39,961 bases of DNA from a virus: IMG/VR virus record IMGVR_UViG_3300010413_000083, positions 1-39,961 of that record; one strand, 5' to 3'. Position numbers and translations under genes: made by a program. The notes under the pieces are model-generated. The model did not search any database. It saw only the letters and a list, made by a program, of their open reading frames with translations, and had not been told where the DNA came from. Within the stretch, counting starts at the first letter, position 1. The number at the start of each line of letters is the position of its first letter. Positions 1,946 through 39,961 of this stretch are shown in pieces.

Positions 1946-2315
1946 GAGAATATATCATCCTTACTGGAAGTGGGAAGAGGTTAAATATAATATGTGGGGA
2001 AAGGTAGACAATAGAGATTACTTCCTGCAAAAGGCCATTAAGTTTACTGGAGATCATAAGCTATATGGCGACTTCATGGTGCAAGTAGTCAATCGATGGA
2101 AATATTCATGTGAGCATAATTTATCTAATGTGACACAAAACAGAAGAGCGTGGATAGGGCATGCTGCTTGCGCATTAGCCTTTAGATGTCCTGAAGATAT
2201 AATAAGGGAAGCATGGGGCCACTTAACTGAAGAACAGCAAATATTAGCAAATAATGAGGCTGATAAGGCTATAGAATATTGGGAGAAAAAATATGCCAAA
2301 AAAGAGATTAAATAA
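1929..2315 (+). CDS. Conserved phage-type protein between IbrB-like and IbrA-like genes (128 aa)
   Basis: It overlaps the ParB-like gene by 17 bases and the PP-loop gene by 23 bases, so it is tightly coupled to both. It contains an aromatic N-terminus (HPYWKWEE), a central NRRAWIGHAACALA block and a C-terminal AWGHLTEEQQ...ANNEADKAIEYWE helix. I have the impression of similar proteins beside ParB-like genes in other phages but cannot name a family. The position suggests a third component of the IbrAB-like module. Confidence 0.65.
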   Translation: MSNLIERIYHPYWKWEEVKYNMWGKVDNRDYFLQKAIKFTGDHKLYGDFMVQVVNRWKYSCEHNLSNVTQNRRAWIGHAACALAFRCPEDIIREAWGHLTEEQQILANNEADKAIEYWEKKYAKKEIK

Positions 2316-3507
2316 ATCTGTTTATATTGCAGCGCAAGAGCGTATATCATGGACATTTGATAATTTTGAAAAAATATATTTGTCTTTCAGTGCTGGTAAA
2401 GATTCGACAGTTATGTTGCACTTGGTCGCTGAAGAGGCATTGAAGAGAAATAGGAAATTTGGATTATTATTAGTAGACTTAGAAGGGCAATATAAATTCA
2501 CAATAGAACATGCCTTAAATCAATATGACAAATATAAAGACATTGTAGAGCCTTATTGGATATGCTTACCTATATCTTTAAGAAATGCTGTTAGTGTTTA
2601 TGAGCCTAAATGGATATGCTGGGATAAGGAAAGAAAAGAAGACTGGATTAGATCTTTGCCAGATAATTGTATATCAGATGAAAACTATTTTGAGTTTTTC
2701 TATCACGGCATGGAGTTTGAAGAATTTGTTCCTTTGTTTGGGGAATGGTATTCTCAAGGCAAAAATTGCGCTTGTTTTGTAGGTATAAGGGCCGATGAAA
2801 GTCTGAACAGGTTTAGAACTATAGCAAGCAATAAAAAGACCACTCTTCATGGTAAGCAGTATACAACTAAAGTTACAGATAGCGTGTTTAATGTGTACCC
2901 AATATATGATTGGAAAACAGAAGATATATGGACATATCATGGCAAGTTCAAAGATAAAGAATATAACAAGCTTTATGACTATATGAATAAGGCTGGATTA
3001 TCTATTCATCAGGCTAGAATATGCCAACCCTACGGAGACGATCAGAGAAGGGGCTTATGGCTATTTCATTTGATAGAGCCTGAAACGTGGGCCAAGATAG
3101 TCGCAAGGGTTAATGGTGCTAATTCTGGAGCATTGTACATTCAAGAGAATGGCAATATAAACGGTTACAATAAAATAACAAAACCGGATAATCATACATG
3201 GCAGAGCTTTGCCAGAATGTTTTTAAATTCTCTCCCTCCAAAAACTAAAGAGCATTACGAAAATAAGATATTATTATTTTGTAAGTGGTGGGAGGAAAAA
3301 GGCTACCCTGAAGGGATACCAGACGCAGCGGATTACAACTTGGAGCAGAAGAGAGACGTTCCATCATGGAGGAGAGTATGTAAATCATTATTAAGGAATG
3401 ATTATTGGTGCAAGGGATTAGGATTTAGCCAACATAAAAGTGAGGCTTATACAAAGTATCTTGATTTGATGAGAAGAAGAAAGCTAGATTGGAATAGAAC
3501 TATTTAA
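2293..3507 (+). CDS. PAPS-reductase-like PP-loop ATPase, IbrA-like (DUF3440 type)
   Basis: 404 aa, close to the usual length of IbrA/DUF3440 proteins. The ATP-pyrophosphatase loop SFSAGKDS is at residues 31-38. The C-terminal half has the long Trp-rich region (FARMFLNSLPP, CKWWEEKGYPEGIPD, PSWRRVCKSLLRNDYWCKGL) that I associate with this family. PP-loop enzymes activate a substrate with ATP; PAPS-reductase relatives act on sulfur compounds, and a related enzyme, DndC, takes part in DNA phosphorothioation. Whether this protein modifies DNA, RNA or acts as a regulator cannot be told from sequence. It ends directly at promoter P2. Confidence 0.8.
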   Translation: MPKKRLNKSVYIAAQERISWTFDNFEKIYLSFSAGKDSTVMLHLVAEEALKRNRKFGLLLVDLEGQYKFTIEHALNQYDKYKDIVEPYWICLPISLRNAVSVYEPKWICWDKERKEDWIRSLPDNCISDENYFEFFYHGMEFEEFVPLFGEWYSQGKNCACFVGIRADESLNRFRTIASNKKTTLHGKQYTTKVTDSVFNVYPIYDWKTEDIWTYHGKFKDKEYNKLYDYMNKAGLSIHQARICQPYGDDQRRGLWLFHLIEPETWAKIVARVNGANSGALYIQENGNINGYNKITKPDNHTWQSFARMFLNSLPPKTKEHYENKILLFCKWWEEKGYPEGIPDAADYNLEQKRDVPSWRRVCKSLLRNDYWCKGLGFSQHKSEAYTKYLDLMRRRKLDWNRTI

Positions 3508-7785: not shown

Positions 7786-7861
7786 GAGTCGGTAGCTCAA
7801 CTGGTAGAGCAACGATCTCCAAAATCGTAGGTTGCAGGTTCGATTCCTGTCCGATTCGCCA
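7786..7861 (+). tRNA. tRNA-Trp (anticodon CCA)
   Basis: 76-base cloverleaf. Acceptor stem GAGTCGG/CCGATTC, D-stem GCTC/GAGC, anticodon stem ACGAT/ATCGT with loop CTCCAAA, T-stem GCAGG/CCTGT with TTCGATT loop, discriminator G, and an encoded CCA. G73 and CCA are the expected identity elements for tryptophan. It reads UGG, not UGA. Proteins in this window use TGA as stop throughout, so there is no sign of recoding. Confidence 0.95.
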
Positions 7862-11211: not shown

Positions 11212-11406
11212 ATGATAATAAACTACGAATTGTATGGCCGAGCGTTCTTTCATTCGGACTGCTCGGTAAGTGAGTATGGCGGGGGGATAGTGAAGCCGAT
11301 TAAAAACGAAAAAGATGCAACTTTGTGTGAGTGTCTTCATTGCGGCAAAAAAGGATATTACCCTGTTGGCAAAAAGGGCTGCGTTAAAGTTGAGGAAGTT
11401 TTATAA
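11212..11406 (+). CDS. Small Cys-containing protein (64 aa)
   Basis: ATG 11212 after AGAGGACAG. Contains four cysteines: a C-x-C pair in LCECLHCGKKGYYP followed by C-x2-C spacing and KGCVKV near the end, plus one at residue 17. This suggests a small zinc ribbon. The stop TAA is embedded in the TTATAAC left box of an attC-like site, so gene and site form one cassette-like unit. Confidence 0.55.
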   Translation: MIINYELYGRAFFHSDCSVSEYGGGIVKPIKNEKDATLCECLHCGKKGYYPVGKKGCVKVEEVL

Positions 11407-11483
11407 CGGAGCATTCAGCGGCTTTGCTAAATGCTTAAAATTAAATACCGTGTTCCTTGGTCCGCTGGAATAAGTGGTTCTAA
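11401..11483 (+). repeat. attC-like site, type D (copy 1)
   Basis: Left R box TTATAAC (11401-11407) and right R box GTTCTAA (11477-11483) are complementary at six of seven positions. L boxes TTCAGCGG (11414-11421) and CCGCTG-G-AA (11462-11470) pair perfectly with one extrahelical G. The long central segment has its own hairpin GCATT-C-AGC...GCT-A-AATGC. The internal sequence is nearly identical to 37390-37473. The extrahelical G on the right arm is the reverse of a sense-oriented integron cassette. Confidence 0.65.
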
Positions 11484-11506
11484 GGCGCGGACAAAATGGA
11501 GGAATT

Positions 11507-11710
11507 ATGGGAGAAAATGAATCTGTTAGTATTAGACAAGTTCTGAGGTTGGCGAGTAATTCAAGGGGAGAAAAATTAACTATTGAGCAACTACAAGATG
11601 GAAGATATGAGCTTGAAATGATTGATGATGACAATTATCAGCAGAGAATGTTTCTCAGTGAAGCCGATGTTGATTTGTTTATCATGACGGTAGCAGGCAT
11701 AAAGCCTTAG
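11507..11710 (+). CDS. Hypothetical protein (67 aa)
   Basis: ATG 11507 follows GGAGGAATT. Compact alpha/beta-looking protein (VSIRQVLRLASNSRGEKLTIEQLQDGRYELEMIDDD...). No family recognised. It is bounded on both sides by attC-like sites, 11401-11483 before and 11707-11776 after, and its TAG stop lies inside the second site's TTAGAAC box, so it is the best single cassette candidate in this cluster. Confidence 0.6.
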   Translation: MGENESVSIRQVLRLASNSRGEKLTIEQLQDGRYELEMIDDDNYQQRMFLSEADVDLFIMTVAGIKP

Positions 11711-11776
11711 AACGCTTGAGCTAAGGGGCTGATCAAAACGAAGTTTTGACAGTCCCGCTTGAGCGAGTGGTTCTAA
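11707..11776 (+). repeat. attC-like site, type E
   Basis: R boxes TTAGAAC (11707-11713) and GTTCTAA (11770-11776) are perfectly complementary. The inner stem GGGGCTG-(A)-TCAAAAC pairs with GTTTTGA-CAGTCCC, and an L-box stem GCTAA pairs with TT-(G)-AGC, leaving extrahelical bases. The unpaired spacers between R and L boxes are as in integron attC sites. Total 70 bp, within the normal attC size range. Confidence 0.65.
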
Positions 11777-35469: not shown

Positions 35470-35744
35470 GTGAAGAAGGTCAAGGAGTCGGGTTAAACTC
35501 TGGCTATGGCTATGGCTCTGGCTCTGGCTATGGCTATGGCTATGGCTATGGCTCTGGCTATGGCTATGGCGATGGCTATGGCGATGGCGATGGCGATGGC
35601 TCTGGCTATGGCGATGGCGATGGCTATGGCTATGGCTCTGGCTCTGGCTATGGCGATGGCTATGGCTATGGCTATGGCGATGGCGATGGCTCTGGCTATG
35701 GCTATGGCGATGGCGATGGCGATGGCTCTGGCTATGGCGATTAA
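35448..35744 (+). CDS. Gly-X repeat protein (98 aa)
   Basis: ATG 35448 follows GTGGAGGAAAA. After a short start (GKQAYIGEEGQGVGLNS) the protein is 40 Gly-X pairs, where X is Tyr (19), Asp (13) or Ser (8). All Gly codons are GGC, all Tyr TAT, all Ser TCT, all Asp GAT. Such Tyr/Gly-rich sequences are flexible and can be adhesive or condensate-forming; function here is unknown. The six-base period means any whole-unit slip keeps the frame. Confidence 0.7.
   Translation: MGKQAYIGEEGQGVGLNSGYGYGSGSGYGYGYGYGSGYGYGDGYGDGDGDGSGYGDGDGYGYGSGSGYGDGYGYGYGDGDGSGYGYGDGDGDGSGYGD
35502..35741 (+). repeat. Hexamer array: 40 tandem GGC(TAT/GAT/TCT) units
   Basis: 240 bases, 40 consecutive units of six with no imperfect unit. 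GGCTAT occurs 19 times, GGCGAT 13 and GGCTCT 8. Only the fourth and fifth bases vary. It codes for the Gly-X protein at 35448 in one frame and is open in the other frames too. Confidence 0.95.
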
Positions 35745-35774
35745 CTAAGATAAACGAACCAGGAGGCAGATTAA

Positions 35775-36434: not shown

Positions 36435-36625
36435 ATCAATCAGAAAAAGAACATATAGAGCAGGGCCATCAATTCAAGCCGAGTGCTACCTGTCCAGTAT
36501 GTATTCATGGTTCAAAGGTAACTAACTGCCATGTAGAGCCAGTAATGTCTTCTGTGCTAAACAAGTTCTGGGTAGATTCACAGAGAATATTCAACAACCT
36601 AGATCCGGAGAAGCACAATGCGTGA
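36431..36625 (+). CDS. Small Cys-containing protein (64 aa)
   Basis: ATG 36431 overlaps the upstream stop and has AAGGAAGGAG upstream; a longer in-frame form from 36356 would overlap the membrane gene. Contains TCPVCIHGSK (C-x2-C) and a further NCHVEP. Probably a small metal-binding protein. Overlaps the next gene by eight bases. Confidence 0.55.
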   Translation: MNQSEKEHIEQGHQFKPSATCPVCIHGSKVTNCHVEPVMSSVLNKFWVDSQRIFNNLDPEKHNA

Positions 36626-36875
36626 TCCTCAAGACGCTCCAGACTGCCCAGAAGACAAGTTTAAGGGATACGATAATCCTCTATGTAAATCTTGCCTATT
36701 TCTGAAAGACTGTGCTATAGAGGCACATGAAAAAGGGAAATGCTGGGATGATTGCATACACTGTAAGGCTGATCGAAGAGAGCATGATTCTCATCATTGT
36801 AGGGATGAAGGAATACAACATCAATGTAGATATTGCCAGGAAGATATGATAACTAGGGTGGATTGTGAGGGATAA
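36618..36875 (+). CDS. Cys-rich small protein (85 aa)
   Basis: About eleven Cys in C-x2-C and C-x3-C pairs (PLCKSC, KDCAIE, KCWDDCIHC, HHCRD, QCRYC, VDCEG) and several His; clearly a multi-zinc protein. It resembles the Cys-rich protein at 939 in style. The TAA stop is inside the GGATAAC left box of the attC-like site that follows. Confidence 0.6.
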   Translation: MRDPQDAPDCPEDKFKGYDNPLCKSCLFLKDCAIEAHEKGKCWDDCIHCKADRREHDSHHCRDEGIQHQCRYCQEDMITRVDCEG

Positions 36876-36935
36876 CGCACAAATTAACCGGCCCCGCAGG
36901 GGTCCAGCGCAGCGAGGTTGAATGCCTTGTTATTT
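36870..36935 (+). repeat. attC-like site, type G
   Basis: Left R box GGATAAC (36870-36876), right R box GTTATTT (36929-36935). L boxes ATTAACC and GGTT-(G)-AAT pair with one extrahelical G, the most classical feature of attC. The central part has CCCC-GCA-GGGG. Outer sequence TAACGCACAAATT and TTGAATGCCTTGTTAT resembles the published attC consensus, but in the orientation of its complementary strand. Confidence 0.65.
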
Positions 36936-36961
36936 GCGCTGTAACTTAGAAAGGATATAAT

Positions 36962-37168
36962 ATGAAATTAAGTGAGCAACTAAAACAAGACCATGAATGC
37001 TGGGACTTCGGCAAGGCGTTGGAAGGATATAGCGAAAGAGCCAAGGAGCTTGAAGATGAAATTGAAGCATTGAAGAGTGATTTGTTACAAGCACTAGAAT
37101 GGAACTGGCTTGATGATGATTACCCGAAAGAGTTATTTGATGCGCTTTATGAAAAAGGAAGCAAATAA
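36962..37168 (+). CDS. Coiled-coil protein (68 aa)
   Basis: ATG after AAAGGATATAAT. One helix with heptads: LKQDHECWDFGKALEGYSERAKELEDEIEALKSDLLQALEW, followed by NWLDDDYPKELFDALYEKG. No family known. The TAA stop is in AAATAAC, the same box type, followed by a truncated site. Confidence 0.55.
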   Translation: MKLSEQLKQDHECWDFGKALEGYSERAKELEDEIEALKSDLLQALEWNWLDDDYPKELFDALYEKGSK

Positions 37169-37202
37169 CTAATAATTAACTGGGGCCATTCAATGCCCCA
37201 AA
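37163..37202 (+). repeat. Truncated attC-like site or terminator hairpin
   Basis: AAATAAC (37163-37169) contains the upstream stop. ATTAAC-TGGGGC-CATTCAAT-GCCCCA follows, a perfect six-base-pair stem. There is no right GTT-type box, so it would be the left half of an attC-like site. A simple transcription terminator is possible, but no T-run follows. Confidence 0.4.
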
Positions 37203-37389
37203 CAGGGAGATGGCACTATGAAAAACAAAGACGGATCGGTTGAGCAGGATGGCAGTGACGCACCCAAAAGAATACAACGCTTGTATGGAGAAATACGGCA
37301 TGAGGCCAGTGCTTGAGCTTATCGAAGCTGGAAGCTCACCCGCATAAGCAACCATGCCTTTTAGATAGGATGTTTTGCGCGGGTTTGGA
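37203..37389 (+). other. Interval without a confident gene
   Basis: Two overlapping short frames exist: 37218-37316 (32 codons, begins KNKDGSVEQDGSD) and 37249-37347 (32 codons, MAVTHPKEYNACMEKYGMRPVLELIEAGS). The second looks more protein-like but has no ribosome binding site; the first has GGGAGATGG some 10 bases upstream. Neither is convincing. The interval also holds a GTTTTGCGCGGG segment like that near 12560. It is part of the 334-base gap to the next gene, with attC-like sites at both ends. Confidence 0.4.
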
Positions 37390-37473
37390 ACCTAACCATA
37401 GCATTCAGCGGCTTTGCTAAATGCTTCAAATTTAAACCGTGTGTCTTTAGTCCGCTGCAATAAGTGGTTGGCA
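37390..37473 (+). repeat. attC-like site, type D (copy 2)
   Basis: R boxes ACCTAAC (37390-37396) and GTTGGCA (37467-37473), L boxes TTCAGCGG (37404-37411) and CCGCTG-C-AA (37452-37460) with an extrahelical base. The core from AGCATTCAGCGG to TAAGTGGTT is nearly identical to 11411-11479, with a shared unbroken start AGCATTCAGCGGCTTTGCTA. Differences lie in the central part and the outer boxes, as in repeated integron sites. Confidence 0.65.
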
Positions 37474-37501
37474 AGACCGCAAATTAAAAAGGAGAAAAGA
37501 G

Positions 37502-37798
37502 ATGGAAATTAAAATTGACGCAGAGCAAGTAAACAAGGTAGTGGCAGATGCAATACTCCAGAGTGCCATTGGTGAAAGCCTGGAAAAAGTAATTAAGGAG
37601 CAAGTACAAAAGCTTTCCACAACGTACAACAACCCGATAGAACCGGTAATAAGAAACGAGATACACAAAATAATTCAACAGCTTGTAATGAAAAAATATG
37701 CTTCACAGATAGAAGAGTTTGTAAAAGAGAAAGTATCTGAGAAGTTTACAACAGAGCTTCTTGATAAGTTGTGGGAAGCTTTTGTAAACAAGCACTGA
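37502..37798 (+). CDS. Helical hypothetical protein (98 aa)
   Basis: ATG after AAAGGAGAAAAGAG. An almost fully helical, charged protein: IDAEQVNKVVADAILQSAIGESLEKVIKEQVQKLS, then RNEIHKIIQQLVMKKYASQIEEFVKEKVSEKF. No family recognised. It is flanked by attC-like sites on both sides (37390-37473 and 37806-37867), so it is the best single cassette candidate in the right cluster. Confidence 0.6.
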   Translation: MEIKIDAEQVNKVVADAILQSAIGESLEKVIKEQVQKLSTTYNNPIEPVIRNEIHKIIQQLVMKKYASQIEEFVKEKVSEKFTTELLDKLWEAFVNKH

Positions 37799-37805
37799 GG
37801 AGCCT

Positions 37806-37867
37806 TGCCAACAAAAAGCTAAATCGACACCCGTAAGGGTGGTCGAAATTTCAGCGCAGGGTTATCT
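37806..37867 (+). repeat. attC-like site, type I
   Basis: Left box TGCCAAC (37806-37812), right box GTTATCT (37861-37867). Stem AGC-T-AAA-TCGA-CACCC pairs with GGGTG-(G)-TCGA-(AA)-TTT-(C)-AGC, loop GTAA, with several extrahelical bases on the right arm. CAGCGCA (37852-37858) and TGCGCTG (37868-37874) can pair and would put the right box in their loop. Confidence 0.55.
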
Positions 37868-37893
37868 TGCGCTGTACAAACTAGGAGGAGTAA

Positions 37894-38082
37894 ATGACGA
37901 AGCCATTTGTTTTAAAAGAGGATGAAAAGTATGTTGAATACATTAAAAATACAGGAGGCAACCCAAAAATAGAATGGTTCGATGAAGATTGGGAGCCGAT
38001 AGGGAGTGAGATAAGAAAGCGACTGAAAAGGCAAAATATTATAGATGAACAGGAAGGGAAAATAATTCTTCTTGTTTCTTAA
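37894..38082 (+). CDS. Hypothetical protein (62 aa)
   Basis: ATG after AGGAGGAGTAA. Small charged protein (KPFVLKEDEKYVEYIKNTGGNPKIEWFDEDWEPIG), then SEIRKRLKRQNIIDEQEGKIILLVS. The end looks like a beta strand. No family known. Followed at 38094 by a half attC-like site. Confidence 0.55.
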   Translation: MTKPFVLKEDEKYVEYIKNTGGNPKIEWFDEDWEPIGSEIRKRLKRQNIIDEQEGKIILLVS

Positions 38083-38093
38083 AGAGGATAGCA

Positions 38094-38129
38094 AGATAAC
38101 GTGCTGGGTAACCGGCTGGACAAATAGAA
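38094..38129 (+). repeat. Half attC-like site, type K related
   Basis: AGATAAC (38094-38100) followed by GTGCTGGGTAACCGGCTGG, which resembles the left half of the site at 38472 (GGCTAACGCTTGAGTTCACCGGCTGG). The right half is missing. This looks like a deletion product of such a site. Confidence 0.45.
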
Positions 38130-38144
38130 ACCAAGGAGGATTAA

Positions 38145-38477
38145 ATGACCGAGACAACCGAGAAGGCAAAAGGACTGAAAGACAACGAAGTTGGCCAGTC
38201 CGCTGTTGACCCTAGGGTTAGCCATGAAGACATGGACAACCTGAGACATATGACAGGAGCACAACCTAGATATAAGAAAAGGCAGTGGGGGTTTAGGAAC
38301 CATTATTGTGCAAGCAAAAGTGGAAAAGACCAAGAATCAATGCAGAGGCTTCTTGCTGCCGGATATGTTGTGCAGGGCATTGAGCAGGAACATTCTATTT
38401 TTTTCCACGCGACGGAAACTGGTTGCAAGGCTATTGGAATGAAGCCAGCGCAGATTAGAAATGCACTGAATGGCTAA
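38145..38477 (+). CDS. Hypothetical protein (110 aa)
   Basis: ATG after AAGGAGGATTAA. The N-terminus is acidic; the middle has HMTGAQPRYKKRQWGFRNHYCAS and QRLLAAGYVVQGIEQEHSIFFHATETGCKAIGMKPAQIRN, a winged-helix-like pattern (helix, GYV beta, TETG turn) that I have seen in small phage proteins of unknown role. The stop TAA is inside the left R box of the next site. Confidence 0.6.
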   Translation: MTETTEKAKGLKDNEVGQSAVDPRVSHEDMDNLRHMTGAQPRYKKRQWGFRNHYCASKSGKDQESMQRLLAAGYVVQGIEQEHSIFFHATETGCKAIGMKPAQIRNALNG

Positions 38478-38536
38478 CGCTTGAGTTCACCGGCTGGCCG
38501 CAGTTTGGCCAGTCCGAGTGAAACGACTGGTTATGC
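38472..38536 (+). repeat. attC-like site, type K
   Basis: The best attC candidate in the window, 65 bp. R boxes GGCTAAC (38472-38478) and GTTATGC (38530-38536). Stem GTTCACCGG pairs with CCG-(A)-GTGAA-(A)-C, then CTGGCC pairs with GGCCAG, giving unpaired extrahelical bases on the right arm. The start TAACGCTTGAGTT is like the conserved end of many attC sites such as those of aadA cassettes, here as the complementary strand. Confidence 0.7.
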
Positions 38537-38564: not shown

Positions 38565-38879
38565 ATGATGACCGACAATGAACAATGGAAGCAAGATTTT
38601 GAGAGGGCCAGGCATTACCGAACCGCGCTTGATGAGATAGCGGGAATGAAAATCCCGTACTGTGACGCTAATGATGTAGCAAATATGATGCGCGACACTG
38701 CAAAGGGGGCGATTGCCAACTTTATGCCGGAAGAATCTCACTTGTGGGCCAGGATAGCAGAGCTTGAAGTTTGTATAAGACAAATGTGTAACAACGCTCT
38801 CGACCTAGGTTATTGTGATATGCGCGACTGCAAAGACTGTAAAACTTTTAAATGCGTGGGGGTAGAAGAAAATGTATGA
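38565..38879 (+). CDS. Hypothetical protein (104 aa)
   Basis: ATG 38565 follows GGGGAGGCACGAAA; a start further upstream would lie in the attC-like site. Two helical segments (NEQWKQDFERARHYRTALDEIAG and SHLWARIAELEVCIRQMCNNAL), with Cys pairs CDMRDCKDCKTFKC at the C-terminus indicating a metal-binding end. More G+C-rich than the middle of the genome. Overlaps the next gene by eight bases. Confidence 0.6.
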   Translation: MMTDNEQWKQDFERARHYRTALDEIAGMKIPYCDANDVANMMRDTAKGAIANFMPEESHLWARIAELEVCIRQMCNNALDLGYCDMRDCKDCKTFKCVGVEENV

Positions 38880-39171
38880 CCGGCATTTAACGATGAGTGA
38901 CGCAAAAGATGAAATGCAAGAGCAACAGCGGCAAGAAAAAATACGCTGGTGGCGTGGCATTGCAGAAAAAACCAAATGGCCCAATTCCGGCGTGTATTTT
39001 GTTCTCCCGGACAACCACCCTGAGGCGACAGAGAATGAAATGATCTTGCTGCATGAAACCGGGCCGGAGATTCCTTTCCGGATTGATGAAGGTGAAAGCA
39101 TGGAAGACATAAAGGCATTTTTTGGAGAAGTGTTCCCGGATGCCGATGTGTTAATTCCTCTTTCCGGCTAA
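38872..39171 (+). CDS. Hypothetical protein (99 aa)
   Basis: Overlaps the previous stop; no strong ribosome binding site, so likely coupled. Helical N-terminus (SDAKDEMQEQQRQEKIRWWRGIAEKTKWPNSG), then beta-like VYFVLPDNHPEAT and PFRIDEGESMEDIKAFFGEVFPDADVLIPLSG. The stop TAA lies in GGCTAACC and begins the 30-bp palindromic repeat. Confidence 0.55.
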   Translation: MYDRHLTMSDAKDEMQEQQRQEKIRWWRGIAEKTKWPNSGVYFVLPDNHPEATENEMILLHETGPEIPFRIDEGESMEDIKAFFGEVFPDADVLIPLSG

Positions 39172-39707: not shown

Positions 39708-39961
39708 AAATAATAGGCATTGATCCTGGAACTAAAACAGGTGTAGCGGTATATGATAAGACCCTAGGCAGACTAATTGATGTTTTTATGACTGATTTTT
39801 GGGGAGCATACGAATATATCAAAGACAATCAACATGATATTCTAATCCAAAAAGTTATTATCGAAGTTCCTCAAACTAAGTTCAACTGGCATAAGTCTCA
39901 GCATTCTACCACCTCGGCAAATGTAGGCGGAATATATCGAGAGGCTAATTTATTGGCTGAT
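39704..39961 (+). CDS. RuvC-like Holliday junction resolvase, N-terminal part (continues at 1)
   Basis: TTG start at 39704 overlaps the previous stop (TTGA), with AGGAGGAG about five bases before it. The reading frame runs off the right end and continues at base 145 in the unique sequence (base 39818 equals base 1). The N-terminal IGIDPGTKTGVAVYDK is the RuvC/RNase H first strand with the catalytic Asp. Total about 133 aa with the left part. Confidence 0.85.
   Translation, partial: MKIIGIDPGTKTGVAVYDKTLGRLIDVFMTDFWGAYEYIKDNQHDILIQKVIIEVPQTKFNWHKSQHSTTSANVGGIYREANLLAD
39818..39961. repeat. Terminal direct repeat (right copy)
   Basis: Exact copy of 1-144. With it the non-redundant length is 39817 bp. 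It shows circularity or circular permutation of the assembled molecule. Confidence 0.95.

Follow-up and report, generated by a model that had tools for sequence, protein, structure and literature searches.

The window, by which we mean the whole stretch of DNA analysed here, is a 39961-base IMG/VR virus record. It carries a 144-bp direct terminal repeat (1-144 and 39818-39961), and the assembly is therefore probably complete and circularised; a RuvC-like ORF bridges the terminal-repeat junction. A P22-like portal (phrog_156), coat, terminase and DNA-transfer proteins are encoded, and nearly all genes lie on the plus strand. The closest portal matches are ~65% identical to that of the phage. 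Nucleotide relatives of the window were not found in phages and plasmids, and searches of the viral contigs with the RuvC, flank-ORF and portal sequences returned no near relative for a gain/loss comparison. The phage also carries a phosphoadenosine phosphosulfate reductase-like auxiliary metabolic gene (phrog_2302, 2293-3507) and a tRNA-Trp gene with a CCA anticodon (7786-7861). A low-complexity ORF with Met-Ala/Leu-Ala codon repeats (MAMALAMAMA..., 35506-35748), possibly a simple repeat and not a gene, separates the structural genes from the small-gene region.

Small genes alternate with integron attC sites at two places in this genome, with two sites within 375 bp (array A, 11401-11775) and four to five sites within 1.7 kb (array B, 36870-38535). 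The features are listed below, where R1 denotes the covariance model described in the following paragraph.

11401..11482, minus strand: attC A1; R' box GTTATAA (11407-11401); R1 15.7 bits, E 0.024; structural scan 24.6
11474..11710, plus strand: cassette ORF A in the A1-A2 interval, 67-78 aa; own Shine-Dalgarno; stop codon TAG in the R' box of A2; no PHROG match
11707..11775, minus strand: attC A2; R' box GTTCTAA (11713-11707); R1 38.3 bits, E 7e-9; fold z -5
36618..36875, plus strand: ORF left of array B; stop codon TAA in the R' box of the first site (B1)
36870..36934, minus strand: attC B1; R' box GTTATCC (36876-36870); R1 26.8 bits, E 1.5e-5
36962..37168, plus strand: cassette ORF, 68 aa; no Pfam match
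37390..37472, minus strand: attC B2; R' box GTTAGGT (37396-37390); R1 23.0 bits, E 1.9e-4; weight matrix 37.1
37502..37798, plus strand: cassette ORF, 98 aa; own Shine-Dalgarno
37806..37866, minus strand: possible, degenerate attC B3; hairpin; R1 6.7 bits, E 9.3, non-significant alone
37894..38082, plus strand: cassette ORF, 62 aa; own Shine-Dalgarno
38094..38222, minus strand: long attC B4, 129 nt; R' box GTTATCT (38100-38094); R1 18.7 bits, E 0.003; weight matrix 24.7
38145..38477, plus strand: cassette ORF, phrog_13561-like; stop codon TAA in the R' box of B5
38472..38535, minus strand: attC B5; R' box GTTAGCC (38478-38472); two extrahelical bases; R1 36.5 bits, E 2.5e-8; fold z -3.2
38565..39171, plus strand: two overlapping ORFs right of array B (38565-38879 and 38872-39171)

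As annotated, the ORF at 38145 has its Shine-Dalgarno and ~26 first codons inside attC B4; homologues of this ORF set in at its residue 28-29, close to the end of B4. Pfam and PHROG searches gave no informative matches for the window's own cassette ORFs.

The sites were scored with a covariance model (R1) that we built from 30 attC found next to bacterial intI genes (80 genome loci collected), and the window was searched with filters off. This search, which a preliminary description of the sequence had proposed as a check, returned four sites at 23-38 bits, two at 16-19 bits and one that was not significant. The attC-like row seen earlier at 36870, 37390 and 38472 was thereby confirmed (E 1.9e-4 to 2.5e-8), and the site claimed at 37806 proved weak. 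Two half sites had also been described. The one at 38094 belongs to the long attC B4, whose R' end it forms, and no support was obtained for that at 37163. A structural scan recovered the sites reported earlier plus two more, at 11401-11482 and 11707-11775, the latter being the best-scoring attC of the genome. The initial description of a single cluster was thus incomplete, as the pair flanking one ORF in array A had been overlooked.

For reference, R1 gives 67.9 bits to the aadA1 site of plasmid R100, and 27.0 and 24.2 bits to experimentally active attC of phage TJE1. Across 953 kb of related-phage DNA (80 loci, both strands) no score exceeded 14.5 bits. A two-part attC weight matrix found five sites in the window versus none in dinucleotide shuffles of it, with one match in the 953 kb. 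The window sites have complementary R'' and R' boxes ending in AAC and starting with GTT, respectively, and, on the minus strand only, L boxes with extrahelical bases, canonical 5/6-nt spacers and a single recombinogenic strand. Sites 11401-11482 and 37390-37472 are alike in pairwise alignment within the attC only, their genes being different, as expected for cassettes; an exact scan for the 21-nt core of the 37390 site hit zero viral contigs. We conclude that the sites are genuine attC.

One could read them instead as chance hairpins, or hairpins with another function such as terminators or processing signals, that resemble attC: they are intergenic, some score low, phage genomes are hairpin-rich, and the folding check gave a mixed outcome, A2 and B5 folding clearly better than shuffles and two of the four stronger sites no better; but the related phages and the shuffles hold no equivalent, R boxes, spacer lengths and extrahelical bases fit an external model, and the scores reach or exceed those of experimentally active phage attC, which leaves this explanation close to refuted.

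With at least two clustered attC and no integron integrase in the record, both arrays qualify as CALINs. Indeed, no match to the tyrosine recombinase family Phage_integrase (PF00589) was found across the whole record, in agreement with the earlier claim of integrase-less arrays around single small genes. They are not conventional cassette arrays, as the intI gene is absent and the ORFs run opposite to the attC.

This last feature was unexpected from the preliminary description, which had assumed the other orientation. In the window, all significant attC matches fall on the minus strand and all cassette ORFs on the plus strand; every site is canonical only when read against the genes. In bacterial intI loci, 124/124 R1 matches fell on the strand predicted from intI, so the model resolves polarity. 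At 38472-38535 the attC bottom strand, here the plus strand, forms a hairpin with extrahelical bases of textbook structure. In gene direction the order of a cassette is a backward attC, a ribosome binding site and the ORF, and in three cases (11708, 36873 and 38475) the stop codon lies inside the next R' box. Thus, a cassette of the window is a small gene plus an attC facing against it, and the gene stops at or within the R' box that follows.

The same arrangement was looked for in other viral arrays. IMG/VR was scanned with two unrelated attC patterns, and the main ORF between adjacent attC was scored for strand. Opposite and same orientations stood at 97:22 in the first viral sample; weight-matrix calls gave 79:15 in that sample and 76:25 in the second, which was collected with the second attC pattern. 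Pooled non-redundant viral arrays gave 190 opposite versus 57 same. In the pooled sample, where a Shine-Dalgarno was present on one strand only, it was on the opposite strand in 136 cases and on the attC strand in 4, and a stop codon lay between -9 and +3 from the attC edge in 75/104 cases. Counted per locus, 51 viral loci were mostly opposite and 2 mostly same, with 12 ties. ORF homology offers an unbiased test of the gene strand. Opposite-strand ORFs of sample 1 matched 15 Pfam and 78 PHROG families, and attC-strand ORFs 0 and 1; for Pfam families in sample 2 the numbers were 13 and 1. Simple ORF calls were too noisy to orient the flanking phage genes, and these genes are left out of the evidence.

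Bacterial arrays showed the reverse. Same and opposite orientations were 68:7 in bacterial intI loci, 45:1 in other bacterial arrays and 33:3 in a Pseudomonadota sample. The idea that CALINs are inverted in general was rejected on the 45:1 result. One convincing inverted cassette exists in the bacterial set, the phage-shared cassette of locus L140 discussed below. The seven other opposite-strand ORFs of bacterial integrons look mostly spurious, and the one with a Shine-Dalgarno has only 35 aa. Published phages were re-examined as well. MW202573 has five attC, all on the minus strand, in a region whose GenBank genes run on the plus strand. TJE1 departs from the pattern, its attC and genes sharing one strand. 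The phages PH101 and P12002L gave zero matches with R1, which is of beta/gamma type, and our conclusions are therefore confined to attC of this type. Within this scope, an attC against the gene holds generally in the attC-bearing viral contigs examined and is the reverse of the bacterial norm.

The phrog_2 terminase, a single family, was found in 16/36 and 10/44 of the attC-bearing viral contigs of the two samples, many contigs being fragments. Portals related to that of the window occur in 11/62 contigs, three of them at 58-61% identity. An integron integrase above the cut-off was present in 1/36 and 0/44 contigs; the one attC-bearing viral contig with a complete integron integrase gene is L237 (G033:C1:5369-6295). 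Cassettes of the viral sample encode DNA methylases, Lar restriction-alleviation proteins, Acb2/Tad1-type domains, Mom, RNA ligase, NinX and many unknowns, and the identifiable cassette genes are largely counter-defence.

Could the viral polarity be an artefact of sampling, of ORF calling or of bacterial contigs misassigned as viral? The IMG/VR contigs are metagenomic, they were picked with attC patterns of beta/gammaproteobacterial type, ORFs were called simply, and one terminase family was matched in only 26/80 contigs. Against this, ORF length, Shine-Dalgarno, Pfam and PHROG homology, the GenBank annotation of MW202573, stop codons in R' and the ends of shared segments (see below) all concur, and bacterial arrays give the reverse result. 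In addition, the array of L261 sits between terminase and head-tail/portal genes, all on the plus strand, with its attC on the minus strand. We find an artefact hardly credible.

We compared the phage arrays with each other to look at cassette exchange. Among homologous segments, 60/192 ends lie at most 12 bp from an R' crossover, as against 4.7% of random points; the segment pairs are partly redundant and correspond to 39 distinct positions. In the R'' control 17/192 ends were counted and no peak was seen. That segments end at R' and not at R'' supports both mobility and the assigned polarity. In one case, L181 and L195 have a 394-bp stretch in common at 99.5% identity, which is a single cassette bordered by R' on both sides, and the neighbours differ. 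In another, L195 and L235 are phages that are 99.6-99.9% identical and one cassette-sized unit apart (L195 4714-5181, L235 4780-4960). Here the junction is inside the 8-bp R'' box CCTAACCC and not at R'; some of the changes may thus stem from microhomology, not IntI.

These segment ends also bear on the possibility that the window is an ordinary phage CALIN with genes and attC in one direction, as in TJE1, where the attC are on the gene strand. The plus-strand reading does place stop codons in or beside the AAC boxes. However, all significant R1 matches are on the minus strand, and in the other phages the segments end at R' of the inverted reading and not at R''. A codirectional arrangement is already contradicted by these observations, and we rate it as very improbable.

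Only 4/291 phage cassette bodies match bacterial integron loci at all. Positions 3781-4106 of L261 are 91% identical to the integrase-proximal cassette in an integron of a Dechloromonas MAG (L140 1657-1982). The common cassette stops at a G|TTATC core, and it is inverted in the Dechloromonas MAG too. The wider cassette regions are L140 1591-2115, beside intI, and L261 3732-4157. The match represents a real cassette exchange between phage and bacterium. Together with the R'-bounded segment ends it indicates that phage cassettes of the inverted type do move, and the mover is presumably host IntI acting in trans. The earlier suggestion that a host integrase could move the cassettes is thereby backed by exchange in other phages of the same type.

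A conserved segment of ~185 bp that begins exactly at an attC R' was seen among many phage arrays, for instance at L186 10015-10202, L212 2110-2290, L245 11602-11787, L324 6549-6730 and L361 4272-4456; in L361 no attC was recognised near it. It may represent a common cassette or else an edge of the array that has been conserved.

The arrays of the window itself may have been captured once, their sites decaying since then as fossils without recombination. The sites at 11401, 37806 and 38094 are weak or long, the integrase is absent, and our search for the window's cassettes in other arrays found none in common with other phages. Four sites are nevertheless well kept (23-38 bits) despite fast phage evolution, and other inverted phage arrays have undergone recent exchange, as seen from the 99.5% identical cassette in different neighbourhoods. 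We therefore regard the fossil origin as unlikely, although it deserves serious consideration.

Taken together, we are confident, with some reserve, that the window contains two integrase-less inverted cassette arrays (11401-11775 and 36870-38535) that are most likely recombined at R' by host IntI in trans; the weakness of two or three of the seven sites counts against this reading. A host with an integron integrase would provide IntI in trans. The phage plus strand, being the attC bottom strand and at the same time the coding strand, would fold into attC hairpins when single-stranded, and IntI would recombine these hairpins at the R' box (G|TT). Single genes could in this way be excised, captured or swapped among phages, and occasionally with a host integron. 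That IntI is the agent and that the sites of the window are active is what we infer here. The inversion may have been kept since it exposes the recombinogenic strand and bars cassettes of bacterial polarity, which would be antisense in the phage, from the working set. If phage genes run with the replication fork, inversion would make the bottom strand coincide with the lagging-strand template and with the non-template strand of transcription.

A physical reason for strand placement to matter comes from the sedentary chromosomal integron (SCI) of Vibrio cholerae, where a bottom strand of attC on the lagging-strand template leads to more cassette excision (PMC11023631). In that work an entire array was experimentally reversed with respect to the fork, whereas in the phages it is the attC that is reversed with respect to its gene. 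As bacterial-type cassettes would be antisense in a phage, and phage cassettes antisense in a host integron, the two pools would be separated. In general terms, environmental phages might keep their own pool of inverted cassettes, mostly counter-defence and small unknown genes, which host integron integrases shuffle in trans among phages and occasionally into host integrons, the inversion both raising exchange and separating the pools. We consider this wider proposal about evenly balanced between acceptance and doubt.

CALINs without an integrase have been described in the phages TJE1, PH101, P12002L and MW202573, and five of six tested phage attC recombine with IntI1 (Qi et al., 2023, PMC9892861). 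Since phage CALINs were published earlier, the headline finding of the preliminary description, a row of attC-like sites in a phage, is not new. Like these virulent or uncharacterised phages, whose cassettes include DNA methyltransferase genes, the window has attC arrays with small genes and no integrase. The cassettes of TJE1 and PH101 were described as same-direction and inversion was not mentioned (PMC9892861). Unlike TJE1 and PH101 as described, the window has all attC facing against the genes, and so does MW202573 on re-examination. With bacterial sedentary chromosomal integrons and CALINs the window shares the attC structure, R'-bounded cassettes and one small ORF in each. In bacterial cassettes, however, gene and attC are codirectional, and integrons proper have an integrase and attI, whereas the window arrays are inverted and integrase-less. 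A search confined to open-access journal articles found no reports of inverted phage cassettes. The new element is thus the polarity pattern.

Integrons usually count as devices of bacteria, and CALINs in phages as something picked up now and then. The consistent inversion, the counter-defence content and the termination of segments at the integrase crossover suggest that the host integron machinery is put to a phage-adapted use, and what phages gain from integrons becomes directly testable. Polarity also offers a simple molecular mark by which phage cassettes can be told from bacterial ones in metagenomes, and the L261/Dechloromonas cassette provides a traceable path linking phages and bacterial integrons.

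At the right-hand side of array B, the overlapping ORF pair at 38565..39171 is possibly the body of a last cassette or else phage flank. A lone GTTAGCC core, spotted by eye, lies on the minus strand (39173-39167) at the stop of ORF 38872-39171. As a non-attC target, it could mark the array's upstream edge.
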